From the IMG/VR virus record IMGVR_UViG_3300042484_002457, positions 62,001-126,000 of that record: a stretch of 64,000 nt of DNA; one strand, given 5' to 3'. Shown piece after piece: positions 1,782 to 44,386 of this stretch. A program made the position numbers and the translations under genes. The stretch comes from a virus. The first letter of the stretch is position 1. The number at the start of each line of letters is the position of its first letter. The notes below the pieces were generated by a model. That model searched no databases and was not told the DNA's origin. It saw only the letters and a program-made list of their open reading frames with translations.

Positions 1782-2495
1782 ATGCTAGAAATCATCCTAA
1801 CTTTGGTAATGACCCACATTACCATTATATGTGTTACTCTGTATCTACATCGCGGACAAGCACATCGTGGCATTGAATTTGATCCTGTACTAGAGCATTT
1901 TATGCGTGCTTGGCTGTGGCTCACAACAGGCATGGTAACCAAACAGTGGGTGGCCATACATCGCAAACATCATAGATACTGTGAGCAATCCAACGATCCG
2001 CACAGTCCTCATGTGTACGGAATCTGGCGTGTGCTGTTTGGCGGTGCTGGGCTGTATCACACAGCTTCTCAAGATCAACTATTAGTTGACAGCTACGGTG
2101 TAGGCACTCCCAATGACTGGATTGAACAACACATTTATACACCACACAGCCGGTTGGGAATAATACTGTTACTGGTTGTGGAAGTTCTGTTGTTCAATGG
2201 TTGGGGAATTGTGATGTGGTTGGTGCAAATGGCCTGGATTCCGTTCTGGGCAGCAGGAGTCATCAACGGTGTTGGTCATTGGTGGGGTTATCGTAATGGC
2301 GAAACTAAAGATAACAGCAGGAACATTAGTCCTTGGGGTATTATTATTGGTGGCGAATGCCTTCATAATAACCATCATCTGGATCCTGCTAACCCTAAAC
2401 TAAGCCGTCGCTGGTTTGAATTTGATATTGGATGGGCGTATCTGCAAATATTGCGCGGTGCCAATTTGGCACGCCTTAGAACGAACGAGAAATAA
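1782..2495 (+). CDS. Fatty acid desaturase
   Basis: 237 residues with the three histidine boxes of membrane acyl desaturases: HRGQAH near residue 23, HRKHH near residue 60 and HNNHH near residue 196, plus hydrophobic segments between them. These boxes bind the di-iron centre that inserts a double bond into acyl chains (delta-9-like family). The protein is short but complete for the bacterial class. It starts three nt after the upstream stop without an obvious Shine-Dalgarno, so it is probably translationally coupled. Its 3' end overlaps the convergent carboxypeptidase gene by 20 bp. Likely role: raising membrane unsaturation in infected cells (inference). Confidence 0.88.
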   Translation: MLEIILTLVMTHITIICVTLYLHRGQAHRGIEFDPVLEHFMRAWLWLTTGMVTKQWVAIHRKHHRYCEQSNDPHSPHVYGIWRVLFGGAGLYHTASQDQLLVDSYGVGTPNDWIEQHIYTPHSRLGIILLLVVEVLLFNGWGIVMWLVQMAWIPFWAAGVINGVGHWWGYRNGETKDNSRNISPWGIIIGGECLHNNHHLDPANPKLSRRWFEFDIGWAYLQILRGANLARLRTNEK

Positions 2496-3174
2496 ATTCA
2501 GCTTCGGGCACACGAGTATGTGTGTTTTTGCTTCCCAACAAAATAACAATTCGTTGTCCGACCACAGTGTCTAACATCATTACAATACATCCGCCAGCAG
2601 CTCGTATGTAACCAGTTTTGCTTATTGTATAAGTTTGATTCACTAGACGATTGGTGTTATAAATCATTGTTTTTCCAATGCGTAGCACTGCGGACTGACT
2701 GGATTCTACAATTTCTTTATAGTTTTTGGCGGCCAGTACCATGGCCACTAAGTCTCTACCAGTGCTTATATTCATTACGCCAAGCCCGGTAGAATCTACA
2801 AATTTTGTATGACGCATGTTTAATGTCCGTGCCTTGGCATTCATTGCCAGCAAGCAACTGTCTCGACCGCCAGGATAATTGCGACATAGTGTAGCTGCTG
2901 CATTATTATCACTTTTAATCAGTGCCAATTGCAGCAGCTGACGGCGTGTGTGCAGACCTATTTTTTTATCAAGATCTTGCTGTGCATCAAGAACCACCAT
3001 GGCAGTCATTAATTTAGTGATACTGGCAATGCTGCGTAGTTCGTGTGAATTTGATTCTTGTAGTATAGCCCCTGCTTGATCAGCAACCACCCAAGAATGT
3101 GCAGTGACTGTGACGGCTGATGCAGTAACTGCAAAAAACGACACCACTAACGCAAACACATAGTTCATGATCAC
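2476..3174 (-). CDS. D-alanyl-D-alanine carboxypeptidase/endopeptidase-like (peptidase S11)
   Basis: 232 residues with an N-terminal signal peptide (about 1-20, ending ASA). The three serine penicillin-binding motifs are in order: S-x-x-K as SITK, S-x-N as SDN, and K-T-G in SKTG. This is the PBP7/DacA family that trims or cleaves peptidoglycan cross-links in the periplasm. The GTG at 3174 overlaps the TGA of the cyclase gene; the ATG at 3168 is an equally good start. The gene is shorter than DacA and lacks its C-terminal beta domain, so it resembles PBP7. Roles in wall remodelling, lysis or superinfection control are possible. Confidence 0.85.
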   Translation of the reverse strand: MIMNYVFALVVSFFAVTASAVTVTAHSWVVADQAGAILQESNSHELRSIASITKLMTAMVVLDAQQDLDKKIGLHTRRQLLQLALIKSDNNAAATLCRNYPGGRDSCLLAMNAKARTLNMRHTKFVDSTGLGVMNISTGRDLVAMVLAAKNYKEIVESSQSAVLRIGKTMIYNTNRLVNQTYTISKTGYIRAAGGCIVMMLDTVVGQRIVILLGSKNTHTRVPEAEFISRSF

Positions 3175-5222
3175 TTGCTGGTAGCTCGGTATATTCCGTC
3201 CCAGTCACTGGGCAAGCGTGCTGAACGTAGGTCTTGTATGCGTTCAATCATGGCATCATAATAGGCTTCGAACTCATGATCAAATTCTGTTTTAAGATGT
3301 TGAGCCAATTCTGCCGCCGCTGCCCACTTTTGTGCACGGTACAGTTGTAAGAATCGTGTATGATCTTGCTTGGCCTCAGCATGCGAGCCGCTGGGTGCGG
3401 CCAAAACTGTGTAGATGCGCACACCTTGTATTTTGCCTTTGACAGCAATTTCATCCAGTTCTAAAGTAAAGAAATTGGTCTGTACATGGCGTGCTGTTTG
3501 CTCACCTAGAACAATTTTGACACCATACGGCTTAGACTGGCCCTCGAGTCTTGACGCCAAATTAACACCGTCGCCAAGACAAGTGTAATCAAACCGCTGA
3601 CTGCTACCCATGTTACCCACAACAACGGTGGCACTATTAATGCCAAGACCCATACCAAAAGGTGGTACGCCTTCTCTTGTAATTTCTGCGTTGAATGCAT
3701 CTAAACTTCCTATCATTTCCAGTGCTGTTTCCACGGCGTGTCGTGCATGATCAGCATCGTCCAAGGGTGCGTTCCAAAATGCCATTTGTGCGTCACCAAT
3801 GTATTTGTCCAGGGTACCATTGTTTTCAATTATTTTGGCAGTCATAGCAGTCATGTAACGATTCATGATCCGAGTCAAGCCCTGAACGTCTTTACCGTAG
3901 TGTTCGCTTATTGTAGTAAATCCGCGAACGTCTGTAAACATAATTGACAACTCGCGTTCTTCTCCGCCTAATTGCAGCAGTTCAGGATTCTGTTGCAATT
4001 TCTCCACCATGGCCGGACTCAAGTATGTGCCAAACTGTTTCTTTATTTGTTGCTTTTGTAAGAACTCTGAAACGAACTTGACCCCGTAGGCATGCAGAGC
4101 GACCAGGATTGTGCCACTTGCAAAGGCAGTTGCGTCGAATAGCCATAAATGATTGCCAAATGCGTACCTACTACCAGCAATGCCAGCAGCACATAAAATA
4201 ATAACTGTCGCCAATCCAACATAAGTCCACCTTGTTAAAATTAATAATACAATACCTGCCACAGCAATGGCCAAGATTTCCGCACCATCTGCGTAGTCGG
4301 GACGCACAATGTTTGTGCCTGAGGCCAAGGTATCTAGTACAGCGGCCTGCAAGTGGTGCGGATATACTTCTCCTCTTGCAGTGCTGACTGGGTTGTTGAG
4401 CCCAGCTGCGGTGAGCCCAACAATGACGATTCCACCTTGGAAATCCTTTGGCAGATCAGCCAAGGAGTGCTCCTGTGGTCGGGATGCCCAATCCACCCAG
4501 ATTCTACCGTAGTTGTCTGTTGCAATTTTTCCAAATTGTGGAATTCTAACTGCTTCAATAACTCCTGCATTGACTCGAACCTGGAAGCTGGGGTCACCAG
4601 CGGCAACTCTAAGGGTTTCGAGACTGATTGAGGGGTAGAGCTGCCCGTTGACTGCAACAACCTGGGGGACTCGGCGTACGACGCCGTCCACTTCAGGCAA
4701 AGTGTTAACAATACCAATACCGCTTGCTGCTTCATTTAGGGACCTCACATTGGGTTGAATGTTTCTGTAGGGAATTCCAGGGTTGCCATCGCCTATTACA
4801 GAAACTCCTGGGCGATATGGTGGGTGCTGTGCCTTGACGGTGTTATTGGTGGCCACATGCGGAAGCACCACTGTGCTCTTTTGCAGCTGGCGAGACAAGG
4901 CAACATCTTGACCAAATCTATCAGCATCAGGCATAAAAATGTTAAACACAATTACACCAGCGTTGCGATTTTCTAGATCACGTATGATGTCGGCGTATTG
5001 ATTTCTGGGAAAAGGAAATTGACCACGTTGTTCAATTGCAGCATCGTCAATGTTGACCACGTGCACCAGTTTGCTGGTGTCTACTGGTTTGCTGGTGATT
5101 AGCGTGTCAAAATAACGCAGTCTCACGCTTTCCACAAATGCAGTGTCTGCAATACGTATGCCCAACACCAAGATCAAGGTGAAGATAGCAGTCCAAGGAG
5201 TTAGTAGTATTTTTTTCCACAT
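3171..5222 (-). CDS. CHASE2-domain class III adenylate/guanylate cyclase
   Basis: 683 residues. One N-terminal membrane helix (about 8-26), an extracytoplasmic CHASE2 domain (about 30-305), three closely spaced membrane helices (about 312-380), then a class III cyclase domain (about 420-600) and a helical tail. The cyclase looks catalytically complete: metal aspartates in FTDVRGFT and IGDAQMAFW, the base-selecting Lys in TLDKYIGD, and the transition-state Asn and Arg in GDGVNLASRLE. It should convert ATP (or GTP) to the cyclic nucleotide in response to an envelope signal. Forms an operon with the carboxypeptidase (overlap of stop and start). The FecR gene nearby is a plausible partner. Confidence 0.9.
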   Translation of the reverse strand: MWKKILLTPWTAIFTLILVLGIRIADTAFVESVRLRYFDTLITSKPVDTSKLVHVVNIDDAAIEQRGQFPFPRNQYADIIRDLENRNAGVIVFNIFMPDADRFGQDVALSRQLQKSTVVLPHVATNNTVKAQHPPYRPGVSVIGDGNPGIPYRNIQPNVRSLNEAASGIGIVNTLPEVDGVVRRVPQVVAVNGQLYPSISLETLRVAAGDPSFQVRVNAGVIEAVRIPQFGKIATDNYGRIWVDWASRPQEHSLADLPKDFQGGIVIVGLTAAGLNNPVSTARGEVYPHHLQAAVLDTLASGTNIVRPDYADGAEILAIAVAGIVLLILTRWTYVGLATVIILCAAGIAGSRYAFGNHLWLFDATAFASGTILVALHAYGVKFVSEFLQKQQIKKQFGTYLSPAMVEKLQQNPELLQLGGEERELSIMFTDVRGFTTISEHYGKDVQGLTRIMNRYMTAMTAKIIENNGTLDKYIGDAQMAFWNAPLDDADHARHAVETALEMIGSLDAFNAEITREGVPPFGMGLGINSATVVVGNMGSSQRFDYTCLGDGVNLASRLEGQSKPYGVKIVLGEQTARHVQTNFFTLELDEIAVKGKIQGVRIYTVLAAPSGSHAEAKQDHTRFLQLYRAQKWAAAAELAQHLKTEFDHEFEAYYDAMIERIQDLRSARLPSDWDGIYRATSK

Positions 5223-5323: not shown

Positions 5324-6613
5324 TTAACTGCTGGAGTCAAAAGTTAATAACCCAGTTAAATTTTTTGTGTTATTTTCCACGTGGTGTATGGTCTTGACAT
5401 ACTCTTCAGGAGAACACAATGATTTAAAAATAAGTCTATTACTGTTAAAATATCTAGCAGAGTTGTGTTCAGCAGCTTGAGTTAGAGCCACTGATAGATT
5501 GGTTTTGTATTCTTGTAGAATTTGTTGAAAGAATTCTTGACTAAAAAACCTTTGTTTATTAAAATCGGCTATGTGATTGAGTTGTGCAAGTAACTTTAGT
5601 TGCAGTGTTGGAGGTAAATTAGATATTCTTTTCATTTCTGCTACCACAGCTTGCAGACGCTCAAGTGGGTCCTTGATGATGTTGTATGTTTCGTCAATAT
5701 ACGGGGAAAAAGTTTTAAACCCATAACTTTGCAAGTAGTCAAGACTGCCAGCACTTGCTGCCAACATAAAAGGTTGACCACACGCAATTGGTCTCAAGGA
5801 TTTTTCAGTAAGATGCCAGCGTTGGTCATCAAACAGTGTTTCAAGCACAACCTCAATATGTGTCCGGTTGTAATCTCTAGAATCATAATCGGCACTGGCT
5901 GCACTGCTGATTTGATTGATATAAAAATGATCTTCAAGATTGTGTTTTTCTATACAAAAATCAGCATTGCTGAATTTGTGTTCTCTGTAGTCCAGGTCCT
6001 GGTCCTGAGGATTAAACCCCATGTGGCATTGATTTGCAAGTTCTGCGTTGACCACTAATTCAGCAAATTTTAATCGATATTCTCTAGTGCCTGCCCAGGC
6101 TCGATTATAAATCAAGAATAGTCGGTCAACGTTCTTTTGACCCAACGCAGGATCATGCCCGGCAAATCGATACCAATCCTGTGCAATCAAGGCATGACTC
6201 CAGTAGTAGACTGGTATAGCTCCGGAACTTGTAAATTTTTCTAGTTCTGGACTCTGCTGCTCACTGTGCAGCAACAAAGCTCGATCATAAAAGTTAAACA
6301 TGTTGTAGACGTAGTATCTGAACACACCAATTTTGGATGCAATTGGTGGCCAATCTGAAAAATTCAAAGGTTCTTGGTCATGACAAATCAGCGGCAGCCT
6401 TGACATTTCTTCAAATCTTGTGCAGTGAAACAACGGTTTGCAATCTTCTGTTTTTTTTGAGCCATGTGGAAACCAGCGATAAATTATTACGTCCTGGTCG
6501 CAATGATCATGTAAAAAATTGTATAATCTATCTAAAGGAATGCTAATTTTCTTCTCCGTATAAATTGGTTTTATTGGTATTGGTATAAATATTGCATGAC
6601 TAATTCCTACCAA
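5324..6613 (-). CDS. Glycosyltransferase-like protein (start uncertain)
   Basis: About 420 residues. The C-terminal half has a pattern typical of fucosyltransferase/exostosin-like phage enzymes: 'RWHLTEKSLRPIACGQPFML', then 'GFKTFSPYIDETYN'. The protein at 11957-13063 has the same arrangement (TEKSIWPALLGKLFLIYG). No ATG or GTG exists in frame near the N-terminus; the only long start is TTG at 6613. An ATG at 6597 with a GGTAGGA box is in the wrong frame. The gene's 5' end overlaps a divergent homing endonuclease gene, which may have disturbed the original start. Substrate unknown. Confidence 0.6.
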   Translation of the reverse strand: MVGISHAIFIPIPIKPIYTEKKISIPLDRLYNFLHDHCDQDVIIYRWFPHGSKKTEDCKPLFHCTRFEEMSRLPLICHDQEPLNFSDWPPIASKIGVFRYYVYNMFNFYDRALLLHSEQQSPELEKFTSSGAIPVYYWSHALIAQDWYRFAGHDPALGQKNVDRLFLIYNRAWAGTREYRLKFAELVVNAELANQCHMGFNPQDQDLDYREHKFSNADFCIEKHNLEDHFYINQISSAASADYDSRDYNRTHIEVVLETLFDDQRWHLTEKSLRPIACGQPFMLAASAGSLDYLQSYGFKTFSPYIDETYNIIKDPLERLQAVVAEMKRISNLPPTLQLKLLAQLNHIADFNKQRFFSQEFFQQILQEYKTNLSVALTQAAEHNSARYFNSNRLIFKSLCSPEEYVKTIHHVENNTKNLTGLLTFDSSS

Positions 6614-7264
6614 CCTTATACATACTTAATTGGCTGGGCCACCCAACATAAATTTTACTATGGTGTGCGATATGCAAAAAATTGTAGCCCAACAGATTTG
6701 TGGAGTAAGTATTTTACTTCATCAAAAGAAGTAGCAGCAATGAAAACAGTTTATGGAGATCCTGACATTATACAAGTTAGAAAAGTATTCTTAACTAAAG
6801 AGCATGCTAGACTCTGGGAAAACAAAGTGTTGCGAAGATTAAAAGTTGTGTCTCGAGAAGATTTCCTTAATAAAAACGATGCTCCTGCTCCTCCAATTAA
6901 TAATCGAGTAATGTCAGAAATTACTAAGACTAAAATTGGCACAGTGCATAAGGGAAAACCAAAATCTGAAGAGCACAAGCAAAAAATTAGAGAAGCACGG
7001 GCAAAGCAGGTCAATACCAGAAAAGGACAACGTGCAACAGAAGAAACAAAGCAAAAACTTAGAGAAGCAAATTTAGGAAAAACATATTCAGAAGATGTTA
7101 ATTCTAAAAAAGGTCAAAAAAAGGATTTGCATTGGACTTATGGAAAACCTCGAACAGAAGAAACAAAGCAAAAACTTAGAGAAGCAAATTTAGGAAAAGT
7201 TTTGTCAGAAGAAACAAAACAAAAAATGCGTGGACCAAGATTGAAATTAAAGGAAATTAAATGA
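6596..7264 (+). CDS. GIY-YIG homing endonuclease with NUMOD3 repeats
   Basis: 222 residues. N-terminal GIY-YIG-type nuclease domain ('YTYLIGWATQHKFYYGVRYA', then a WSKYFTSS segment and an 'ENKVLRR' Glu). Next come several NUMOD3-like DNA-binding repeats of the form 'GKPxSEEHKQKIREA', 'TEETKQKLREANLGK'. The region is visibly more A+T-rich than its neighbours. The stop overlaps the ATG of the dehydrogenase gene (ATGA), and the end of this gene supplies its Shine-Dalgarno (AAAGGAAA). A TATAAATA box sits five nt before the ATG. A freestanding Seg-type selfish gene. Confidence 0.85.
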   Translation: MTNSYQPYTYLIGWATQHKFYYGVRYAKNCSPTDLWSKYFTSSKEVAAMKTVYGDPDIIQVRKVFLTKEHARLWENKVLRRLKVVSREDFLNKNDAPAPPINNRVMSEITKTKIGTVHKGKPKSEEHKQKIREARAKQVNTRKGQRATEETKQKLREANLGKTYSEDVNSKKGQKKDLHWTYGKPRTEETKQKLREANLGKVLSEETKQKMRGPRLKLKEIK

Positions 7265-8505
7265 AAAAATGCAAGGTGGGATTCATCGGAATTGGGAAAT
7301 TAGGTTTAGATTGTGCTGAAGTCATGGCTGAGAAGCATGAAGTCAGAGGTTACGATATTTACCCACGCACCAGTGACTCAGTAAAAGTATGTGACATTGA
7401 TGAACTTGTGAACGAAAGCGAATGGATTTTTATTGCTGTGCCCACACCACATGCTGAAGGCTATGATGGCAGTGTGCCTAGCTCGCACATGGAGCCTCGA
7501 GACTTTGGACACGATGCTGTGATTGATGCTATCAAGAACATCAACCAGCATGCTCGCGGTCCCAAAAAGGTTGTGTTGATCAGCACAGTGTTGCCGGGCA
7601 CCACACGCCGCAAGTTTTATCCATTGTTAGACCAGCAACATCAGTTCTTGTACAACCCTTACCTGATTGCCATGGGTAGTGTGAAATGGGACATGGTCAA
7701 CCCTGAAATGGTCATGATTGGCACCGAAGATGGCAACCCCAATGCCTTGGCCGGTGAGCTGATTGACCTGTACAAAACAATCATGGAAAATGATCCACGC
7801 TACGAAATTGGCACCTGGGACGAATGTGAAGCCATCAAGATCTTCTACAACACTTTCATATCAGCCAAGGTGGGACTGGTGAACATGATTCAAGATTTTG
7901 CCATGCGAATCGGCAACATCAACGTGGACGTTGTAACAGATGCTCTGGCCCGATCAACCATGCGTATCATGGGGCCCAAGTACATGACTGCTGGCATGGG
8001 CGATGCAGGTGCATGCCACCCACGTGACAACATTGCGTTGCGTTGGTTGGCCAAAGAATACAACATTGGCTACGACTTGTTTGATACAGTGATGCATGCC
8101 CGGGAAATTCAAGCTCAGAATCTTGCACTGTTCCTTGTGGATATTTCAGTAACCAACAACATGCCCATTGTTATTCACGGCAAAGCCTACAAGCCCAATG
8201 TGCCTTACTGTATTGGCAGTTATAGTACTCTGGTGGGTCACTACATTGAGCAAGCAGGAAAAACCGTGGTGTATGTAGACCCATTAGCCGATGATCGCGC
8301 CAACTGTGTGGACAATGTTACAGAGCCTGCTGTTATTTTAATGGCACACAACCGTAACATCACGTTTGGCTACACTGGCGAACAAGCAGCCGACCCTGAC
8401 TATTTTGAATTCCGGCCAGGATCAATCGTGGTAGATCCTTTCCGCAAAGAAGCTGATCGTGCAGGCATCAAGGTTGTTCACTATGGCAACACACGGAGTT
8501 CTTAA
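7261..8505 (+). CDS. UDP-glucose/GDP-mannose dehydrogenase family protein
   Basis: 414 residues. Rossmann NAD motif GFIGIGKLG at residues 8-16, middle domain, and the catalytic cysteine in 'GDAGACHPRDNIAL', which matches the family's GGxCxPKD loop. The last ~110 residues form the UDP-binding domain. Enzymes of this family oxidise a sugar nucleotide (UDP-Glc to UDP-GlcA, or UDP-ManNAc) twice at C6. It heads a run with the oxygenase-like and amidinotransferase genes, so a modified sugar is the likely product. The exact substrate cannot be read from sequence. Confidence 0.85.
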   Translation: MKKCKVGFIGIGKLGLDCAEVMAEKHEVRGYDIYPRTSDSVKVCDIDELVNESEWIFIAVPTPHAEGYDGSVPSSHMEPRDFGHDAVIDAIKNINQHARGPKKVVLISTVLPGTTRRKFYPLLDQQHQFLYNPYLIAMGSVKWDMVNPEMVMIGTEDGNPNALAGELIDLYKTIMENDPRYEIGTWDECEAIKIFYNTFISAKVGLVNMIQDFAMRIGNINVDVVTDALARSTMRIMGPKYMTAGMGDAGACHPRDNIALRWLAKEYNIGYDLFDTVMHAREIQAQNLALFLVDISVTNNMPIVIHGKAYKPNVPYCIGSYSTLVGHYIEQAGKTVVYVDPLADDRANCVDNVTEPAVILMAHNRNITFGYTGEQAADPDYFEFRPGSIVVDPFRKEADRAGIKVVHYGNTRSS

Positions 8506-9001
8506 ATATCATATTCCAAAGTTTTGGGATGATGAGTTCAAGCAGCTCAACTACATCAACGAAACCTTTAATGATACAGAAAGTCTAAAGCGGTGGACAG
8601 CTCTAGGCTATGCCAACAAGTTCACCGGAGACATGTGCAACATGCGCAGTCCCCAACCCACTTGGAATCACCGGTTTATTAAAATCTATCAAGAAATGGG
8701 CTGGAAAGATATTGGTACCAGCTACTATAGAATGGCCACTGGAACCATACTGCCCACACACAGTGACTTGTATCTTCGTTATATTGAATTGTTCAAACTA
8801 CAAGGGCAAGAACAACGTATACGCAGAGCCATTGTGTTCTTGGAAGACTGGTGTCCAGGCCACTATTTTGAAAGTTGTGATGTGCCCAAGACACAGTGGC
8901 AGGCCGGCGATGTTGTAGAGTGGCAGTATGATGCATCGCACTTGGCAGCTAATCTCGGACTAGAACCAAGATACACACTTCAGATAACGGGATGGGTATG
9001 A
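8483..9001 (+). CDS. 2-oxoglutarate/Fe(II) oxygenase-like protein
   Basis: 172 residues from ATG 8483, which overlaps the dehydrogenase gene by 23 bp. A double-stranded beta-helix pattern is visible: first ligands H-x-D in 'LPTHSDLYLRYIEL', a distal histidine in 'YDASHLAANLG', and an arginine shortly after ('EPRYTLQITG') suited to bind 2-oxoglutarate. Phages of the T4 group commonly carry such enzymes. Could hydroxylate a protein, sugar or small molecule; context favours a role with the surrounding sugar genes. Confidence 0.65.
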   Translation: MATHGVLKYHIPKFWDDEFKQLNYINETFNDTESLKRWTALGYANKFTGDMCNMRSPQPTWNHRFIKIYQEMGWKDIGTSYYRMATGTILPTHSDLYLRYIELFKLQGQEQRIRRAIVFLEDWCPGHYFESCDVPKTQWQAGDVVEWQYDASHLAANLGLEPRYTLQITGWV

Positions 9002-9909
9002 TCAAAAGTTATGATGAGTGGAGTCCACTCAAACGCATAGTGGTCGGAGATGCCACTCACGCCAATTGGCCAGTGCATGATCCTGTTTTCAAACTGGAAA
9101 GCAACAAAACAACCTGGAAAGAATCAGCAGTACCCCGGGGACCTGTGCCTCAAAACATAATTGACGAAGCCAACGAAGACTTGGATGGTCTTGCAACGAC
9201 CCTGATGAGCCTAGGTGTAGATGTAGTACGCCCGGATCCACTCAACTTTCAAGTTCACGACGGCATGTATAATTATTGTCCCCGGGACCGACTGCTGGTG
9301 TATGGTGATACCATTGTGAATCCCGCCATGATGTATCCTTGCAGAGACATGGAATTTCAATGTTATCACGACATTGTAGACGAGGCTGCTCATTATCATC
9401 TTATGCCCAGAAACAAAGGCATAATCCTAGACGCAGCCAATGTATGCAGACTTGGGGACAAAATGCTATTCTTGGAATCTGCGTCAGGCAATCGAGCAGC
9501 TTATGATTGGTTGTGCAGTGTGTTTCCCAATGTCAAAATTGAACTGTGCAACTTCTATACTGGGGTGCACATAGACTCAACCATTGTGCCCTTGAGAGAA
9601 GGCTTGGTCATGCTCAATGCCAGCCGAGTCAATAGTGAAAATGTGCCTGGAGTTTTTGAAAAATGGGAAAAGATCTGGGTTGAAGATGTTGTTGCCCAGG
9701 GCTTTTACCAATATCCCTATGCATCAAAATGGATTGCCATGAACATGTTGGTTGTGAATCCTACCACAGTGATCTGTGACCGACACCAAACTGACCTAAT
9801 AACCACCTTGCAAAAACATGGTTTTGAAGTGATTGTACATGAGCTGCGACACAGCCGAACTCTAGGTGGTGGATTTCACTGTGTGACCCTGGATCTTGAG
9901 CGCGGTTGA
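8998..9909 (+). CDS. Glycine/inosamine-type amidinotransferase
   Basis: 303 residues from the ATG at 8998 (ATGA overlap with the upstream stop; another ATG at 8992). Three catalytic stretches of the GATM/StrB family are present: 'ILDAANVCRLGD' (Asp), 'TGVHIDSTIVPLREGLVMLN' (His/Asp) and 'LGGGFHCVTLDLERG' (nucleophilic Cys). The family moves an amidino group from arginine to an amine such as glycine or an aminocyclitol. Sitting downstream of a sugar nucleotide dehydrogenase and an oxygenase-like gene, it may act on an amino sugar (inference). Confidence 0.85.
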   Translation: MIKSYDEWSPLKRIVVGDATHANWPVHDPVFKLESNKTTWKESAVPRGPVPQNIIDEANEDLDGLATTLMSLGVDVVRPDPLNFQVHDGMYNYCPRDRLLVYGDTIVNPAMMYPCRDMEFQCYHDIVDEAAHYHLMPRNKGIILDAANVCRLGDKMLFLESASGNRAAYDWLCSVFPNVKIELCNFYTGVHIDSTIVPLREGLVMLNASRVNSENVPGVFEKWEKIWVEDVVAQGFYQYPYASKWIAMNMLVVNPTTVICDRHQTDLITTLQKHGFEVIVHELRHSRTLGGGFHCVTLDLERG

Positions 9910-9934
9910 CCATTATTGTGATTTGTCATATAAT
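9906..9934 (+). promoter_or_regulatory. Sigma-70 promoter for uvsE, leaderless
   Basis: TTGACC, 17-bp spacer, TATAAT. The ATG at 9941 begins seven nt after the -10 box, where transcription should start, so no 5' leader is expected. The -35 box overlaps the stop of the amidinotransferase gene. Confidence 0.85.
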
Positions 9935-9940
9935 ACATGT

Positions 9941-10969
9941 ATGACTACACCTCGAATTGGCTTTTGTTGCAAGTGGCTCAATGACCCCAGTGAATGTGGG
10001 GGCATGAAGGTCAATGCAAAAGATCGGGACCTTAACGGGCGTTCAACTACCATGCGCTGGCTTCGTGAGCACAAGAGCGAAGCCGAACAGCGCCAATGGG
10101 ATATCATGAACCACAATGCTCGTGCAGCAGTGCTCATGATTGAACGTGTGGCCACCTTGCTCCCAGGTCGCAGAATGGTACGACTGGGCAGTGAAATGCT
10201 GCAAGGTTATACTCATGAGGATTGGATTCCTTTTTGGAAACAAGCTGATGTACAAGATCACTGTGCAAAGATTTTTGCACCTGTAGGCGAAACTGCTCGT
10301 AGACTAGGTGTGCGACTCAGCTTTCACCCCGGGCAGTTCTGTGTGCTTGCTAGTGAAAGTGACGAGATTGTTGAACGAAGCATCCTGGAATTTGAGTACC
10401 ATGCCGACATGGCTCGTTGGATGGGCTATGGCGCCACTTGGCACGATCATGGCTTTAAAATTAACGTGCATTTGAGTGGCAAGGGTGGTGTCACAAAATT
10501 CCTGCGATCATTGGGTCGCCTCACTCCCGAGGCCAGGAACTTAATTACCATCGAAAATGACGAGATGACTAATGGGATCGATTCTACTTTACTTGTGGCT
10601 GAGCATGTGGCTCTCGTACTGGATGTACACCATCATTGGATCAACTCGGGCGAATATATCAAGCCTGATGATGTTCGCGTTGCAAGGGTTGTTAACTCTT
10701 GGCGTGGCGTTCGCCCTGCTCTTCACTATTCAGTTAGCCGTGAAGATATTCTGGTTGGGCATGATGGAGGAGTTCGCCCAGACCTTGCTGCCCTTCTTGA
10801 TGCAGGTTTTAAAAAGCAAAAGCTACGGGCTCACAGTGATATGATGTGGAACACTGCATGCAATGACTGGATCTTGGGATTCTCTCCGCAGTTTGATATA
10901 CAATGCGAAGCCAAGGGCAAAAACTTAGCCAGTGAAATGCTGTACAACCAATGGCAGGCCAATGTATAG
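9941..10969 (+). CDS. uvsE: UV damage endonuclease UvsE
   Basis: 342 residues, starting MTTPRIGFCCKWL. TIM-barrel UVDE features: 'VRLSFHPGQFCVLAS' (metal His and Gln), 'YHADMARWMGY', 'INVHLSGKGG', 'ITIENDE' (Glu) and 'ALVLDVHHHWIN'. The enzyme nicks 5' to pyrimidine dimers and other lesions, starting excision repair. Here it takes the place that DenV has in T4. The start is set by the promoter at 9906-9934; no Shine-Dalgarno is possible on the predicted transcript. Overlaps the next gene by eight bases. Confidence 0.92.
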   Translation: MTTPRIGFCCKWLNDPSECGGMKVNAKDRDLNGRSTTMRWLREHKSEAEQRQWDIMNHNARAAVLMIERVATLLPGRRMVRLGSEMLQGYTHEDWIPFWKQADVQDHCAKIFAPVGETARRLGVRLSFHPGQFCVLASESDEIVERSILEFEYHADMARWMGYGATWHDHGFKINVHLSGKGGVTKFLRSLGRLTPEARNLITIENDEMTNGIDSTLLVAEHVALVLDVHHHWINSGEYIKPDDVRVARVVNSWRGVRPALHYSVSREDILVGHDGGVRPDLAALLDAGFKKQKLRAHSDMMWNTACNDWILGFSPQFDIQCEAKGKNLASEMLYNQWQANV

Positions 10970-11252
10970 CATACTAACAGGAATTTTTGATTGGATACAC
11001 AGCGATTACAAAACTAACCGAATTAGATTTTGTGTGGAGGTGCTGGCTTGGGGTATTAGTATTGGGTGCTCTATCACCATGGCTGCTACTGTTCCAACTC
11101 CACCTTTATTGGCTCTTTATCCTATTTGGATTATAGGATGTGCTATGTATGCTTGGGCTAGTTATACTCGTAGATCGTTTGGTATGCTAGCCAACTACAT
11201 CTTGCTTACCACAATAGATAGTGTTGGCCTAGCTCGGATGCTATTGAACTAA
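10962..11252 (+). CDS. Small integral membrane protein
   Basis: 96 residues from the ATG at 10962 (MYSILTGIFDWIHSD), overlapping the end of uvsE. About three hydrophobic segments: 'VEVLAWGISIGCSITMAA', 'PPLLALYPIWIIGCAMYAW' and 'MLANYILLTTIDSVGLA'. A PnuC-like or generic phage membrane protein; I do not recognise a specific family. Its 3' end overlaps the convergent SGNH gene by 12 bp. Confidence 0.55.
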   Translation: MYSILTGIFDWIHSDYKTNRIRFCVEVLAWGISIGCSITMAATVPTPPLLALYPIWIIGCAMYAWASYTRRSFGMLANYILLTTIDSVGLARMLLN

Positions 11253-11960
11253 TTTTTCTAATACAACATCATTTATCCAGAAACTGTGGGCGTCAGTGAC
11301 TGGATGATTGCTTACAATGTTGAATTTTCGATCCTTTGCAAAGCTCAAAAATCCACGGTCATTTTGATAAAACACAAATCTGTTCCAGTCAATACAATCA
11401 AAAATCCAACTAAAATTGCCACTGTTTTGTGTTTGATTGTATGACTGTTCTACCAGATTATCTCTATCATAGGCTGTGGTAAAATAATATGGTATGTTTT
11501 TAATTTTAAAAAAATTCTCTAGATTATAAACAGTGGTCCAGTAGTTCAACAACGCAGATGTTGTACTGTAATAATATTTGAACCAATGTCGTTTGTGTCC
11601 ACGTATTTCCCCTCCAGACAACGAATATCCTTCAACATGATTTGACTGACCATCCAGTGTTACCAATGAAGGACTATGTCCATTTTGCCAACTAGCAATA
11701 GATATGCCACTGGCTCTCAATGGATGGTGTTGATCTAAGTACCAATCAAATCTGTCCACACTGGGCAACATCACAACAATTAAATCAGTGTCATTGCGAC
11801 TACAGTGGTACATTATTCGTTTGCTAACAAAATCAATGCCAGCACCGCGAGCTCCAAGATTTGTTAGTTTGTAATCAAGATGTTGTGCCAAATAATCAGC
11901 CCAAGTTTTTTGATAGTTGTCCAAGGTAAAACTGCACCCAGCTGTGACTAAGTTTTTCAT
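11241..11960 (-). CDS. SGNH/GDSL-type hydrolase
   Basis: 239 residues. The nucleophile block is at the very N-terminus ('LVTAGCSFTLDN', Ser in GCSF), 'NLGARGAGID' provides the Gly block, and 'HPVTDAHSFWIND' gives the Asp-x-x-His of the catalytic triad. These are esterases or acetyl hydrolases. Small phage SGNH proteins usually act on glycans. It overlaps the start of the glycosyltransferase-like gene by four bases, so the pair is probably one glycan-modifying unit. Confidence 0.7.
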   Translation of the reverse strand: MKNLVTAGCSFTLDNYQKTWADYLAQHLDYKLTNLGARGAGIDFVSKRIMYHCSRNDTDLIVVMLPSVDRFDWYLDQHHPLRASGISIASWQNGHSPSLVTLDGQSNHVEGYSLSGGEIRGHKRHWFKYYYSTTSALLNYWTTVYNLENFFKIKNIPYYFTTAYDRDNLVEQSYNQTQNSGNFSWIFDCIDWNRFVFYQNDRGFLSFAKDRKFNIVSNHPVTDAHSFWINDVVLEKLVQ

Positions 11961-13063
11961 GGAACCAACTCCAACTGAGAAACAAAAAATTTGTACAGAT
12001 TTTTACCCAGGGTCCATCGGGCTGACTCCAATTCAGGGTGTAGTTGTGCTTGTATATCTTTGGCATTTTTGATCAATTCATGATTGGTGTCAATCATGGT
12101 TGTTAATCTTTTTTTATCAAAGTCAAAACCAGAGTCAAAACTAGAGATGGAATCATAAGTTGTGTTGGCAAATTTTGTTATATCAATATCATAAAATCTT
12201 TGTATCCAGGCCATGGAACCTGGTCTGCCATAGATCAAAAACAATTTGCCCAACAACGCAGGCCAGATACTTTTTTCTGTACTTTTAAAATTTCCAGTAA
12301 CGGTTTCAGGATTTATGGCCAAGGGTATGTTGTGATATTTTTGATCTATGTACAAGTAATTTTCAACATTTTTAGACACCCATACACCATTGATGTTGAC
12401 CTGCCTTGCTATCATTGGGTAATCAGGATTTGTAGTAGGATCGTAAACAATTTCTTGGTTGACCTGACAAAATTCTAATAGATCTTCGGGAAAACTACAA
12501 TTTCTATTCACTGTGATCAACCCATAACTGCTCAACTGTTTTTTGTGTAACTCTCGAGCCAGATCAGCTTTGTGGCTAGCTGAAGTATTGCCAATCAAAC
12601 AAAAAAAGTTGTGATTGTTGTCATTTGGCACAAAGTCTGTGGCTGTGTCAGCCACACGATAATAAGTCAAACAGTCGTTTAACAACACCCATGGTAGCTC
12701 TAGTATTTTGATACGGAACTGATGTTTTTTTCTATAAGACTCTTGAGCCGCATAATCCAACATGGTGATATAATAAACTGGACTGTTTACATAATTGTTG
12801 AGGATCCTGGTTAATTGTGCATTTACTGTAAATATCACATGCTCATCTTCGGCAATGATCACAACAGATCTGCCTTGAGCAAGTCCTTGTTGTATTTTGA
12901 TATCTAACCAATTGTAATTGTCCGGACTGTCCCACGAACGATTTTTTAACTTTATATCAATGATAAAAAGGTCTGGTCGATGGTGTTGTATAAAGCCCAA
13001 TGTATAATACCCAAAAAGAGTTTCGTACTCATTTAGATTTATATTTTCATACACCGGGTACAT
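11957..13063 (-). CDS. Glycosyltransferase-like protein, related to 5324-6613
   Basis: 368 residues from ATG 13063 (MYPVYENINLNEYETLFGYY); upstream reading in this frame only shadows the lysine-rich gene. The C-terminal part has 'TEKSIWPALLGKLFLIYGRP' and 'RFYDIDITKFANTTYDSI', the same pattern as the protein at 5324-6613. The N-terminal half ('PDLFIIDIKLKNRSWDSPD', 'SVVIIAEDEHVIF') looks Rossmann-like. No clear Shine-Dalgarno. Likely modifies a surface glycan or the phage's own DNA or proteins; the acceptor is unknown. Confidence 0.55.
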   Translation of the reverse strand: MYPVYENINLNEYETLFGYYTLGFIQHHRPDLFIIDIKLKNRSWDSPDNYNWLDIKIQQGLAQGRSVVIIAEDEHVIFTVNAQLTRILNNYVNSPVYYITMLDYAAQESYRKKHQFRIKILELPWVLLNDCLTYYRVADTATDFVPNDNNHNFFCLIGNTSASHKADLARELHKKQLSSYGLITVNRNCSFPEDLLEFCQVNQEIVYDPTTNPDYPMIARQVNINGVWVSKNVENYLYIDQKYHNIPLAINPETVTGNFKSTEKSIWPALLGKLFLIYGRPGSMAWIQRFYDIDITKFANTTYDSISSFDSGFDFDKKRLTTMIDTNHELIKNAKDIQAQLHPELESARWTLGKNLYKFFVSQLELVP

Positions 13064-13076
13064 TAAACAAATACTG

Positions 13077-13430
13077 TTAAACTGATTTCTTTTTAGCGGG
13101 CGCTTTTTTAGCAACCGGCTGTTTGACAGCAGGTTGTTTGGTAGCAACGGGCTTTTTGACAGCAGGCCTCTTGGGGGCTGTTGGCTTGGATTTGTTGTCA
13201 GGATGTGCGACCCACTCTTCAGCAGTGAGCTTGTGCAGACCCACACAGAATCCAGTTGTGCTGCGACCGCAGCCGCAGCGGGCTGGCTCGGGCTTGCTGG
13301 GTGCCACTTGGGTAATAATTGGTGCAACGTCTACAGACACTGTTGCCGGTGCAGGCAGTTCTACTTTGTAGGGCGCCTGGGGTTCCTGGGTGGTGTGCTT
13401 ACCAAAAAAACTTTTTAAAAATCGTAACAT
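13077..13430 (-). CDS. CDGSH-like metal-binding protein with lysine-rich tail
   Basis: 117 residues, TAGGAG Shine-Dalgarno before ATG 13430. The middle has 'CGCGRSTTGFCVGLHKL' (about residues 52-68), close to the CDGSH iron-sulphur motif C-x-C-x2-S-x3-P-x-C-D-G-x-H but one residue shorter and without the Asp. The C-terminal ~35 residues are a K/P/A-rich, histone-H1-like tail (KRPAVKKPVATKQPAVK). This mixture suggests a nucleic-acid-binding protein carrying a metal or Fe-S site. A TAAATAC element lies 17 nt upstream. Confidence 0.55.
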   Translation of the reverse strand: MLRFLKSFFGKHTTQEPQAPYKVELPAPATVSVDVAPIITQVAPSKPEPARCGCGRSTTGFCVGLHKLTAEEWVAHPDNKSKPTAPKRPAVKKPVATKQPAVKQPVAKKAPAKKKSV

Positions 13431-13615: not shown

Positions 13616-13891
13616 ATGTTTACAGCAGACGCAATCATCGACACCGTTCAAACCAGTAAAAAGACTTTTGTCAAGACTTTTGTACAAAACGAAACAGCAG
13701 CCAAGGCCATGAATGAGTTCATTGACGCTCAAGCTGACTACACCAAGAAGGCAGCTCGAGTTGGAATGGACACATTTACTACACTCAGCACCGAAATGGT
13801 CAAAGCTGGTCAGAACGCTATGAAATTTGACTACACCAAATTTGGTGAAGGCATCATGAAAGCTTACACAGCTACCGCAGCCAAAAAGTAA
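13616..13891 (+). CDS. Phasin-like helical protein
   Basis: 91 residues, TTAGGAGAAACAC before the ATG. Nearly all helical: 'TVQTSKKTFVKTFVQNE', 'FIDAQADYTKKAARVGMDTF', 'AGQNAMKFDYTKFGEG'. This repeats the phasin pattern of amphipathic helix plus 'FxDAQ...' used to coat polyhydroxyalkanoate granules. It is shorter than bacterial phasins (about 110-190 aa). It is followed by a strong terminator, so it is a single-gene unit. Could coat storage granules of the host or simply be a small abundant helical protein. Confidence 0.6.
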   Translation: MFTADAIIDTVQTSKKTFVKTFVQNETAAKAMNEFIDAQADYTKKAARVGMDTFTTLSTEMVKAGQNAMKFDYTKFGEGIMKAYTATAAKK

Positions 13892-13910
13892 TACTCAAGT
13901 GTTACATTTA

Positions 13911-13935
13911 GAGCCCCGCAAGGGGCTTTTCTTTT
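13911..13935 (+). terminator. Intrinsic terminator after the phasin-like gene
   Basis: GCCCC-GCAA-GGGGC stem-loop followed by TTTTCTTTT. The same hairpin ends pstS. Confidence 0.85.
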
Positions 13936-13942
13936 GGCAAAA

Positions 13943-13971
13943 TTGTTGTGTGTTTGTAACAAAATTGTAAC
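13943..13971 (+). promoter_or_regulatory. Pho box (PhoB operator) upstream of pstS
   Basis: Three 7-bp direct repeats at exact 11-bp steps: TTGTTGT (13943), TTGTAAC (13954) and TTGTAAC (13965), separated by 4-bp spacers. This is the architecture of a PhoB-binding Pho box, and it ends 11 bp before a TAAATA -10-like box. Confidence 0.75.
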
Positions 13972-13982
13972 ACATTTTGACC

Positions 13983-13989
13983 TAAATAC
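13983..13989 (+). promoter_or_regulatory. TAAATAC element: pstS -10 and/or late promoter
   Basis: Lies 11 bp after the Pho box and 29 nt before the GTG of pstS. Its position suits both a PhoB-dependent -10 box and the phage TAAATAC late motif, so the gene could be read by either route. Confidence 0.5.
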
Positions 13990-14017
13990 ATGTGTCACTA
14001 ACACAAGGAGACTCACA

Positions 14018-15022
14018 GTGAAAAAACTATTTGCTATTCTCGTAGCCGCAGTAACAATTTCTGCACAGGCTGCAGACATCACAGGGGCAGGTGCCACCTT
14101 CCCTTATCCAATCTATGCCAAGTGGGCTGAAGGCTACAAAAAAGCCACAGGCACTGGTATGAACTATCAAAGTATCGGATCATCGGGCGGCATTCGTCAA
14201 ATCAACGCAAAGACTGTGGACTTTGGTGCCACAGATGCTCCAGTAAGCGGTGAAAATTTGGACAAGCAAGGGCAAGTACAGTTTCCTGCAATCATTGGCG
14301 GAACAGTTCCTGTTGTTAATCTAGATGGTTTTAAACCAGGTGAACTACGCATCACAGGACCAGTCATGGCCGAAGTGTTCTTGGGCACGATCAATCGGTG
14401 GAATGATCCCAAACTTGTAGCATTGAATCCAGGTAAGACATTGCCCAACACAGAAATCACCATTGTACATCGTGCTGATGGTTCAGGTACAACATTCAAC
14501 TGGACAGACTATCTTGCCACAGTAAGCCCAGAGTGGCTACAACGTGTGGGTCGTGGTGCCGCAGTCAAGTGGCCAGCAGCCACGTCAGTAGGTGGCAAAG
14601 GCAACGAAGGTGTGGCTGCCAACGTGAACCGCATCAAAGGTTCAATTGGTTATGTAGAGTATGCTTATGTCAAGAAAAACAACATGACATTCCTGCAACT
14701 ACAAAATCGATCAGGACGGTATGTTAGTCCAGATGATTCAACATTTGCCGCAGCCGCAGATGGTGCTGATTGGTTCTCAGTTCCTGGTATGGGATTGAGC
14801 ATTGTGGATCAACGTAATCCTGCGGCTTGGCCAGTGAGTTCAGCAAGTTTTATCATCATGTACAAGACCCCTGCCAACAAGGCCAACAGTGACGAAGTGT
14901 TAAAATTCTTTGACTGGGCATTTAAGAATGGCAAGAAAGATGCTGCTGACTTGGACTATGTGGCATTACCTGACACGTTGACACGTCAGATCCGTGAGCG
15001 TGTTTGGACACAGATCAAGTAA
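14018..15022 (+). CDS. pstS: Phosphate-binding protein PstS
   Basis: 334 residues from GTG 14018 with AAGGAG nine nt upstream; an in-frame start at 13934 would run through the Pho box and is rejected. Signal peptide 1-19 (MKKLFAILVAAVTISAQAA). Then the PstS pattern: 'ITGAGATFPYPIYAKWAEGY', 'YQSIGSSGGIRQI', 'VDFGATDAPV', 'IVHRADGSGTTF'. Serves as periplasmic phosphate receptor for the host PstABC transporter. Phage pstS genes are known in T4-like cyanophages, where host PhoB control has been shown. Single-gene unit with its own terminator. Confidence 0.95.
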   Translation: MKKLFAILVAAVTISAQAADITGAGATFPYPIYAKWAEGYKKATGTGMNYQSIGSSGGIRQINAKTVDFGATDAPVSGENLDKQGQVQFPAIIGGTVPVVNLDGFKPGELRITGPVMAEVFLGTINRWNDPKLVALNPGKTLPNTEITIVHRADGSGTTFNWTDYLATVSPEWLQRVGRGAAVKWPAATSVGGKGNEGVAANVNRIKGSIGYVEYAYVKKNNMTFLQLQNRSGRYVSPDDSTFAAAADGADWFSVPGMGLSIVDQRNPAAWPVSSASFIIMYKTPANKANSDEVLKFFDWAFKNGKKDAADLDYVALPDTLTRQIRERVWTQIK

Positions 15023-24346: not shown

Positions 24347-24376
24347 TTGACAATCCCAGTTGTTTGCGTGTATAAT
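24347..24376 (+). promoter_or_regulatory. Sigma-70 promoter, leaderless
   Basis: TTGACA, 18-bp spacer, TATAAT. The ATG of the nuclease gene (24383) begins seven nt after the -10 box. Confidence 0.82.
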
Positions 24377-32943: not shown

Positions 32944-34050
32944 ATGAGCTATCTATTTACGTCAGAATCTGTGAGTGAAGGACATCCGGACAAAGTGGCT
33001 GATGCCATTAGCGATGCCATTCTTGACATTGTGATGAGCAAGCAAGATACTGCATTGCGATGCGCATGCGAGACATTGGTCACAACCAATCGAGTGGTTG
33101 TAGCAGGAGAATACAAGGGTATCTTGCACCAAGCCGAAGTAGACAGTGCTGTGCGCCGAGTTGTACGAGATATTGGTTATGAACAGGCTGGGTTTGATTG
33201 GCGCACACTAGAAATCACAAACTTGCTACACGGTCAAAGCGCAGACATTGCCATGGGCACTGACACGTTTGGCGCAGGTGACCAAGGTTTGATGTTTGGG
33301 TATGCCTGCAACGAGACTGACAACTACATGCCCAGCGCAATTTATTGGAGTCATCGCATTGTTGAACATCTTACGCAACTGAGAAAAGCAGGCCAAGGTG
33401 CACATATTGGTCTGGGACCTGACGCCAAGAGTCAAGTAACTTTTGAATACAACAATGACGGCACACCCCAGCGCATTGCCAAAGTTGTTTGCAGTACCCA
33501 GCATGGTGACACCGCAGATATTGCAACTGTACGTCAAGAAGTTGAGCAATTTATTCGAGACATTTTGCCCAAAGAATATGTGGATAATACTACTGAGTTT
33601 TTCATCAATCCTACTGGTCGCTTTGTTATTGGTGGACCTGATGGCGACACTGGACTCACCGGAAGAAAGATTATCGTTGATACTTACGGTGGTTATAGCC
33701 CTCATGGTGGCGGCGCTTTTAGTGGTAAAGATCCTACCAAAGTAGATCGTAGTGCCGCTTACATGATGCGCTACATTGCCAAGAACATTGTGGCATCTGG
33801 TCGAGCGCCCTGGGCAACCTGTCAGATCAGTTACGCAATTGGCATGAAAGACCCCATGAGTTTCTATGTTGAATGTGAGGACCGAGAACTGGCAAGGGCA
33901 TTGACTGCAACCATACCCACCATGGTTGATCTAACGCCAATGGGAATTATCAAACATTTTGATTTGTTCCGTCCAATCTACAGTACCACCACCAACTACG
34001 GACACTTTGGTAAATCCAACCTGCCTTGGGAAAAAATTGATTTATTTTAA
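32944..34050 (+). CDS. metK: S-adenosylmethionine synthetase MetK
   Basis: 368 residues (host enzymes ~385); AAGAAGGAAACC before the ATG. Typical blocks: 'FTSESVSEGHPDKVADAISD', 'FGAGDQGLMFGYACNET', 'IGGPDGDTGLTGRKIIVDTY', 'GGGAFSGKDPTKVDRSAAY'. Makes SAM from methionine and ATP in the cytoplasm. Key ATP, methionine and metal residues appear intact. Nearby SAM users are the methyltransferase at 35777 and the radical SAM proteins. Probably co-transcribed with the upstream gene. Confidence 0.95.
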   Translation: MSYLFTSESVSEGHPDKVADAISDAILDIVMSKQDTALRCACETLVTTNRVVVAGEYKGILHQAEVDSAVRRVVRDIGYEQAGFDWRTLEITNLLHGQSADIAMGTDTFGAGDQGLMFGYACNETDNYMPSAIYWSHRIVEHLTQLRKAGQGAHIGLGPDAKSQVTFEYNNDGTPQRIAKVVCSTQHGDTADIATVRQEVEQFIRDILPKEYVDNTTEFFINPTGRFVIGGPDGDTGLTGRKIIVDTYGGYSPHGGGAFSGKDPTKVDRSAAYMMRYIAKNIVASGRAPWATCQISYAIGMKDPMSFYVECEDRELARALTATIPTMVDLTPMGIIKHFDLFRPIYSTTTNYGHFGKSNLPWEKIDLF

Positions 34051-43132: not shown

Positions 43133-43565
43133 CATCTATTCTGACAACGATGTGATATCTGACACTGGTGAAAGCCTTTACATCAGTACTGGTGCTACTG
43201 GTGCTATTGGCGCTGCCGACTCAAATGCTTATTCATGGAATGCCAACAGTTCTATAGATTGGAACAATATCACTATTGGATCTTCCAATATTGCTGGCAC
43301 CAATGGTACCATGATTCGTCCGTCTGGACGTTTGGAACTTCAAGGTGAAGATGCTGACATAAAAATCAATGGTCGAAGTTTGATGGATGCTATTGATGCC
43401 CTTGAGCAGCGCCTTAACATTCTAGTACCTAATCCTGAGCTGGAAGCAGAATGGGATGAATTACGAGAGCTGGGCGAACGTTATAGAGCGTTGGAAAAAC
43501 AATGTACCGAGAAAGGCAACATGTGGAAAAAACTAAAGTCAATGCCACCACCAACCAAACCATGA
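43110..43565 (+). CDS. Conserved T4-type phage protein
   Basis: 151 residues from ATG 43110. Gly/Asn/Ser-rich N-terminus, 'RPSGRLELQGEDADIKINGR', 'LEQRLNILVPNPELEAEWDE', coiled-coil end, 'MPPPTKP'. I recognise this combination from T4-like cyanophage-type genomes; function unknown. Overlaps the next ATG. Confidence 0.65.
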   Translation, partial: SKNANTINIYSDNDVISDTGESLYISTGATGAIGAADSNAYSWNANSSIDWNNITIGSSNIAGTNGTMIRPSGRLELQGEDADIKINGRSLMDAIDALEQRLNILVPNPELEAEWDELRELGERYRALEKQCTEKGNMWKKLKSMPPPTKP

Positions 43566-44386
43566 AACCAAAACAACGTATCAATCACATTGTAAAGTGG
43601 TTGAAGCAGTATGCCAAGAGTGCCAAAATTGACACTTTTGTAGTGGGCATTTCTGGTGGGATCGACAGCTCAGTTGTGAGTGCCTTGTGTGCTCAAACTG
43701 GCTTAAAAACCATTGTGGTGCAGATGCCTATTCGTCAAAACAAACAGTTGGATAATCGCAGTAGCTTGCATGCAGGCTGGTTGTTGGAACGTTTCCCCCA
43801 AACAGTTACTCACATGAGCATGGATCTAACTCCAGTGTTCTCTGCGTTTGAAAAGAAGGTTGATCCTTTTTGCAGGATTGACGATGACACCTATGACACG
43901 TACAAATTGGCCAGTGCCAACTCTCGCAGTCGCCTGCGCATGATGACGCTGTATCAAATTGCACAATGTCATGGTGCCTTGGTTGTAGGAACCGGCAACC
44001 GGGTAGAAGACTTTGGTGTGGGCTTTTTTACCAAGTACGGCGATGGCGGAGTTGACCTCAGCCCCATTGGCGACTGTCTCAAAACACAAGTATGGGACAT
44101 GGGTCGCGAACTTGGTGTAGCACCAGAGATCATTGATGCTGCTCCTACTGATGGACTTTGGGCAGATGGTCGTACAGATGAAGATCAGATTGGCATGACT
44201 TACCCTGATCTAGAACGCATGATGGCCTTGGACTTCTTAAAACGTGCCAAGGCAGTGGACTCTGACATGCCCGGTAGCTCCAAGTTGTCAGCAGACGATC
44301 GCAAAAAGCTAACACGTTATCAAGAGCTTCGTGCTAGAAACATGCACAAAATGCAACCAATCCCGGTTTGCAAGTTTGACCAATAA
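43562..44386 (+). CDS. nadE: NAD+ synthetase NadE (ammonia-dependent type)
   Basis: 274 residues, the length of bacterial NH3-dependent NadE. PP-loop 'VVGISGGIDSSVVSALCAQ', 'LVVGTGNRVEDFGVGFFTKY', 'DLSPIGDCLKTQVWDMGREL', and 'PTDGLWADGRTDEDQIGM'. Adenylates nicotinate adenine dinucleotide and amidates it to NAD+. No glutaminase domain. ATGA coupling to the gene upstream. Suggests the phage boosts NAD supply; no other NAD gene is in view. Confidence 0.93.
   Translation: MKPKQRINHIVKWLKQYAKSAKIDTFVVGISGGIDSSVVSALCAQTGLKTIVVQMPIRQNKQLDNRSSLHAGWLLERFPQTVTHMSMDLTPVFSAFEKKVDPFCRIDDDTYDTYKLASANSRSRLRMMTLYQIAQCHGALVVGTGNRVEDFGVGFFTKYGDGGVDLSPIGDCLKTQVWDMGRELGVAPEIIDAAPTDGLWADGRTDEDQIGMTYPDLERMMALDFLKRAKAVDSDMPGSSKLSADDRKKLTRYQELRARNMHKMQPIPVCKFDQ

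Follow-up and report, generated by a model that had tools for sequence, protein, structure and literature searches.

The inosamine-phosphate amidinotransferase StrB amidinates an amino-cyclitol phosphate and puts guanidino groups on the precursor of streptomycin, and it is mainly from antibiotics such as this that guanidino-sugar chemistry is known. To our knowledge, glycan clusters are common in phages, and their chemistry is mostly unknown. Here we describe a StrB-type amidinotransferase gene and its conserved neighbors in a 64,000-base window (bases 62001-126000) of the IMG/VR virus record IMGVR_UViG_3300042484_002457. Together with a nucleotide-sugar dehydrogenase homolog, a protein resembling Fe(II)/2-oxoglutarate (2OG) dioxygenases and a GT-B-like glycosyltransferase (GT), it forms a unit that we read, with confidence slightly better than even, as a phage glycan-tailoring operon that would produce a guanidino-sugar in the manner of StrB, the finished glycan most likely being displayed on the virion or the infected-cell surface.

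The record, 209,543 bases in length, comes from a large uncultured bacterial virus whose relatives are metagenomic giant phages; reading by eye finds terminase-, recombinase- and ribonucleotide-reductase-like proteins along with many glycan-related genes. It is probably incomplete, since six amidinotransferase-bearing relatives of at least 320 kb span 321-364 kb. Phage amidinotransferases have been noted earlier as single annotations (PMC2853527; PMC8226683), and mycobacteriophages are known to have glycosylated virions (cited in PMC12619734). The open literature searched contains no account of a module joining dehydrogenase, oxygenase, amidinotransferase and GT, a literature search for guanidino modification in phages found nothing, and the paper on the jumbo 'moraphages' makes no mention of the oxygenase, a dehydrogenase or queuosine genes (PMC12619734). 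What is new here is a module, not described before in that literature, of a known kind of cluster, that of phage glycan tailoring.

Related Clusters in Other Phages

A preliminary description of the window had called amidinotransferases rare in phages. This holds for cultured phage records, 15 of 50,697 of which carry one (Campylobacter phages, two Enterococcus records and Synechococcus phage S-SCSM2R). In metagenomic giant phages, by contrast, they are not rare: with the amidinotransferase as query, viral contigs yielded 105 related stretches. Eighty were kept as loci for the counts given below; these contain near-duplicates, and 66 amidinotransferases remain after dereplication at 88%.

Several of the closest described clusters contain part of the present gene set. 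In S-SCSM2R (PQ898602), the oxygenase gene lies immediately upstream of the amidinotransferase gene, as in the present phage, within a cluster of mini-DegT, radical S-adenosylmethionine (SAM), several GT, oxygenase, amidinotransferase and GT2 genes. The mini-DegT protein is 43% identical to that of the present genome; the dehydrogenase is absent, with the radical SAM and several GT genes present instead, and the module proteins are only 30-40% identical. In Campylobacter phages of the genus Firehammervirus (CP220, CPt10, F379), a pentein amidinotransferase of about 25% identity is encoded beside radical SAM and nucleotide-diphospho-sugar transferase genes (PMC2853527), again with no dehydrogenase in the cluster; a candidate 2OG-like gene upstream of it was rejected, as its sequence lacks the HxD...H pattern. 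Conversely, metagenomic phages of the L166 type group C-methyltransferase, dehydrogenase, oxygenase, hexapeptide transferase, mini-DegT and GT11 genes, with no amidinotransferase in the records examined. Similarly, Synechococcus phage Bellamy and Pelagibacter phage HTVC008M encode dehydrogenases of the same subfamily as that of the present phage (56% and 48% identical, respectively) in clusters of GT, carbamoyltransferase and methyltransferase genes with NadE-like genes and without an amidinotransferase. The window has its own NAD-synthase-family gene (43502-44386), about 48-50% identical to the NadE-like genes beside the Bellamy and HTVC008M dehydrogenases, as well as an open reading frame (ORF) at 32944-34050 that by eye resembles SAM synthetase.

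Composition and Conservation of the Module

The preliminary description had reported three overlapping genes, and all three ORFs are present with the overlaps it gave: the dehydrogenase homolog at 7261-8505, the oxygenase probably at 8483-9001 and the amidinotransferase at 8998-9909, all on the plus strand. Two starts needed correction. The oxygenase frame is open from 8459, with relatives and sequence placing the likely start at 8483, and the amidinotransferase frame is open from 8992, where there is an in-frame ATG, with a likely start at 8998 in an ATGA overlap with the oxygenase stop. The enzyme families that it assigned were also correct.

The amidinotransferase is, by sequence, of the StrB type within the pentein superfamily. 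Specifically, phmmer matches it to StrB (PDB 1bwd) at an E-value of 1.5e-63, compared with 1.9e-27 for HsvA, 2.3e-26 for AGAT and 2.3e-21 for SxtG, and identity to the full-length Streptomyces griseus StrB is about 38%. The catalytic residues credited to it earlier are in place: the triad D147/H193/C297 and residues D99, R118 and D195 align with D179/H227/C332, D108, R127 and D229 of StrB, such that the StrB set is identical in the phage enzyme, and the six are invariant or nearly so in 49 sequences. In a tree, the metagenomic phage amidinotransferases form one clade on a long branch apart from cellular StrB-type sequences. The clade also includes L177, a 4.4-kb contig assigned to a 'Bacteroidetes' metagenome-assembled genome and considered as a cellular module; with GT-B, oxygenase and amidinotransferase genes in phage order, it is probably a misbinned phage. 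Related phages additionally encode one or two other penteins, about 350-385 amino acids long (L059:9977-12250, L067:9700-10848, L038:8427-9587), which keep the Cys and His and lack the catalytic Asp of the amidinotransferase.

The 180-amino-acid oxygenase ORF has no Pfam or PHROG hit, and a PDB profile search with it gave no sequence match. Its assignment to the Fe(II)/2OG dioxygenase superfamily comes from an HxD...H...R pattern, invariant across relatives, that supplies the iron triad and the distal Arg, and from an AlphaFold2 model (pLDDT 91) with a predicted double-stranded beta-helix (DSBH), matched by Foldseek to P4H, AspH and AsqJ at E-values of about 1e-6 to 1e-5. A second 2OG-like paralog (o202) lies outside the window at 137287-141451 of the record, beside sulfotransferase-, SGNH- and APS-kinase-like genes (partly read by eye), a neighborhood that suggests sulfated glycans.

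The dehydrogenase ORF, which also has NCBIfam and PDB matches, is recognized by the Pfam families UDPG_MGDP_dh and UDPG_MGDP_dh_N (E-values of about 1e-14 to 1e-15) and by phrog_9148 (5e-89), identifying it as a homolog of dehydrogenases of the UDP-glucose/GDP-mannose type; UDP-glucose dehydrogenase activity is putative. A GxGxxG motif (G10-G15) and residues K193, N197, C252 and D256 are invariant in 47 sequences, and we take the latter four to occupy the positions of the catalytic Lys, Asn, Cys and Asp of UDP-glucose dehydrogenase.

The conserved unit also takes in a gene on the minus strand, at 5324-6613, whose divergent product is modeled as a GT-B-type glycosyltransferase-like protein (AlphaFold2 pLDDT 88.5); the 5' end of this ORF is uncertain. 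Nearly all Foldseek matches of the model in the PDB are GT-B proteins (best E-value 4.7e-4, probability 0.99), and a T-E-K motif and a downstream Glu are invariant in the family. Among the 80 amidinotransferase loci, the dehydrogenase is present in 79, the oxygenase lies no more than 400 nt upstream of the amidinotransferase in 76, and the divergent GT-B-like gene is found in 74. In a separate reverse search with the oxygenase as query, the amidinotransferase was found in 76 of 80 loci. The order GT-B (minus strand), dehydrogenase, oxygenase, amidinotransferase is fixed in most of the 80 loci, and the module is kept across relatives down to about 63% identity; loci L030-L032 are exceptions, their oxygenase and amidinotransferase genes being separated by a member of the GT-B-like family. 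The preliminary description had also drawn an SGNH hydrolase gene (11241-11960) and a second GT-like ORF (11957-13327) into the argument alongside the GT-B-like gene, but each occurs in only 1-2 of the 80 loci and was rejected as a module member.

Dehydrogenase, oxygenase and amidinotransferase are real genes under purifying selection, given that the ORFs exist, their families match, and the ratio of nonsynonymous to synonymous substitution (dN/dS) is low. Pairwise comparisons with relatives give dN/dS values of about 0.08-0.13 for the dehydrogenase and oxygenase, and a dN of about 0.11-0.13 with saturated dS for the amidinotransferase.

Proposed Pathway

In the pathway that we favor, the amino group of the sugar would be supplied by phage DegT-type aminotransferases, acting with short-chain dehydrogenases/reductases (SDRs) of the GalE or 4,6-dehydratase type, or by the host. 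The amidinotransferase would then move the amidino group from L-arginine to the sugar amine, giving a guanidino-sugar by StrB-like ping-pong chemistry in which Cys297 would carry the covalent amidino-enzyme intermediate and Asp147 and His193 would take part. The dehydrogenase homolog and the 2OG oxygenase may act on this same sugar, or on its carrier, by oxidation and hydroxylation, respectively; transfer of the finished sugar to a glycan would fall to the GT-B-like enzyme. Such a guanidino-glycan would most likely decorate the virion, or the surface of the infected cell, adding positive charge.

Direct support for this pathway consists of gene presence, catalytic residues, purifying selection and conserved linkage; we infer that the acceptor is an amino sugar, that the steps run in this order and that the virion is the target. 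An amidino-sugar is favored because the closest characterized relative is StrB and all six active-site residues are kept. A glycan is favored because L030-L032 have a GT-B-family gene within the operon and because the S-SCSM2R, L166, Campylobacter, Bellamy and HTVC008M clusters hold glycan genes. The supply of amino sugar is supported by predicted DegT and SDR genes: each of the six records searched that carry the amidinotransferase and measure at least 320 kb has both full-length DegT and mini-DegT genes, the best scores of four full-length DegT proteins scanned are to sugar transaminases of the PseC or DesI type, and three of these four genes adjoin NDP-hexose dehydratase/epimerase-like genes. 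Unlike the streptomycin pathway, no inositol dehydrogenase of the GFO/IDH type was found in nine phage records, for which reason an inositol route was rejected and phage-made inosamine looks unlikely. Of the amidinated sugar for a surface glycan, virion or DNA proposed in the preliminary description, the sugar or glycan thus appears to be the best-supported target, in view of the GT-B-like linkage, the sugar aminotransferase and dehydratase/epimerase genes and the related clusters of cultured phages, while DNA finds little support.

Several observations weigh against this pathway. Firstly, the SPE motif of the dehydrogenase is replaced by NPY, removing the conserved Glu, and the ORF has no hit to the UDP-binding domain PF03720 at an E-value of 0.01; owing to these two absences, its NDP-sugar specificity is uncertain. 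The Bellamy and HTVC008M enzymes share the NPY and the unrecognized UDP-binding domain, along with the catalytic residues. Secondly, the modeled GT-B assignment rests on weak template modeling (TM) scores of 0.2-0.4, and the amidinotransferase lacks 23 residues that StrB has between R127 and D179. Thirdly, a full-length DegT gene was not found in the present, probably incomplete record, in which mini-DegT is present. Lastly, no module gene is tied to a virion protein, and a fiber-like ORF found in 55 loci has no database match.

Alternative Explanations

The alternative that survives best, though we consider it unlikely, is that the acceptor of the amidinotransferase is a free amine or amino acid, such as glycine, lysine or putrescine, and that the module makes a small metabolite or alters the arginine metabolism of the host during infection. 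AGAT and HsvA share the fold and donor-binding residues, 2OG enzymes often hydroxylate amino acids, and a viral survey lists a phage 'glycine amidinotransferase' (K00613) under amino-acid metabolism (PMC8226683). Nonetheless, the enzyme is much closer in sequence to StrB (1.5e-63) than to AGAT (about 1e-26), and the conserved linkage is to glycan genes rather than to amino-acid genes.

Less probable again is an amidinated or glycosylated hypermodified base in the phage DNA, protecting it against restriction. FolE-, QueD- and QueE-like genes, part of the 7-deazaguanine pathway, are present in the genome, QueD is found in each of the six relatives measuring at least 320 kb, and Campylobacter phage F379 has both a pentein amidinotransferase and QueD. 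The system is incomplete, however: searches found no QueC and no hit to the TGT family (TGT/DpdA), and the thymidylate-synthase family appears in one of nine records, these mostly negative results being the ground on which a DNA-modification route was rejected. As this partial set is unlinked to the module, at a distance of about 110 kb, and is without QueC and TGT/DpdA, DNA is the less likely final target on the gene content. The FolE-, QueD- and QueE-like genes are located at 179679-187332 of the record, outside the window, near GalE-, mini-DegT-, Rieske- and PP-loop-like genes.

We find it improbable, slightly more so than DNA modification, that the target is a protein, with the oxygenase hydroxylating a virion or host side chain, the amidinotransferase turning an amine into a guanidine, and the dehydrogenase and GT building on the hydroxyl. 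Prolyl and aspartyl/asparaginyl hydroxylases are among the nearest folds of the oxygenase model, and the fiber-like ORF lies just downstream in 55 loci; against this, the known acceptors of StrB-type enzymes are small, a match to the DSBH fold does not identify the substrate, and the downstream ORF is fiber-like by eye only. Finally, phage genomes shuffle modules and the DNA-repair gene uvsE is also adjacent in many loci, but a chance neighborhood of unrelated auxiliary genes is very improbable. The translational overlaps and conservation in 76-79 of 80 loci, with relatives as low as about 63% identity, speak against it, and the oxygenase-amidinotransferase pair in a second lineage, that of the distant Synechococcus phage, already largely excludes it.

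Boundaries and Neighboring Genes

Downstream of the module, a UvsE-type UV-damage endonuclease is encoded on the plus strand at 9941-10969 (Pfam UvdE, 7.9e-30), and in most loci uvsE lies 3' of the amidinotransferase gene, directly or within a few kb. It is preceded on the same strand by a predicted sigma-70-type phage promoter, TTGACC-N17-TATAAT (9906-9934; 11 of 12 consensus positions), that begins at the stop codon of the amidinotransferase gene; in 22 of 32 distinct relatives, a TTGAC-N17/18-TATAAT site (10-12 of 12 positions) is retained, ending 5-6 nt before the uvsE ATG. Because of this conserved promoter of its own, starting at the amidinotransferase stop, uvsE is read as a separate transcription unit and was rejected as a pathway member, the predicted promoter marking the 3' boundary of the module. 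The motif family TTGACC-N17-TATAAT has five exact matches in the window, compared with 0.02 expected: besides 9906-9943, copies lie at 24347, 41876, 45493 and 60232, and about a dozen more have one or two mismatches. Several copies have the longer sequence TTGACCAAAATTTCCCAATTTGCTATAATATACACATA in common, and the family sits 5-6 nt before an ATG, which would yield leaderless or nearly leaderless mRNAs. A search of the window for a late-promoter octamer gave one TATAAATA, at 6584, which is not above chance. In 55 loci, the ORF of about 420 amino acids read by eye as fiber-like (L169:8229-9497 and relatives) stands between the amidinotransferase gene and uvsE; it has no match in named phages and only a marginal PHROG hit (0.048).

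Upstream, a NUMOD3 homing endonuclease (6596-7264, plus strand; Pfam NUMOD3, phrog_314) lies outside the pathway and occurs in 8 of 159 loci. It has inserted into the dehydrogenase gene at its 5' end, leaving a remnant of the old end at about 6563-6584. Across 6500-7340, the old leader and decayed dehydrogenase start precede the endonuclease and a recoded start follows it; the start of the divergent GT-B-like gene near the insertion seems disturbed as well. Farther out, the minus strand at 2476-5222 encodes a D-alanyl-D-alanine carboxypeptidase-like protein and a 683-amino-acid protein that resembles CHASE2-adenylate cyclase by eye (phrog_35576, 3e-255), and 13616-15022 encodes a small protein, phasin-like by eye, and after it a phosphate-binding protein, PstS, that scores above the NCBIfam cut-off.

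Implications

A StrB-like operon predicts a mass shift of +42.02 Da (CH2N2) and a cationic sugar, and its product can be searched for in virions, the host envelope and DNA. The broader proposition, that a widespread group of giant phages makes a guanidino-sugar and mounts a cationic glycan on the virion, is one for which we found no viral precedent and which we regard as tentative and rather doubtful. If true, it would bring to viruses an amidino-sugar chemistry known from antibiotics, with possible consequences for adsorption, superinfection exclusion or resistance to host defenses.

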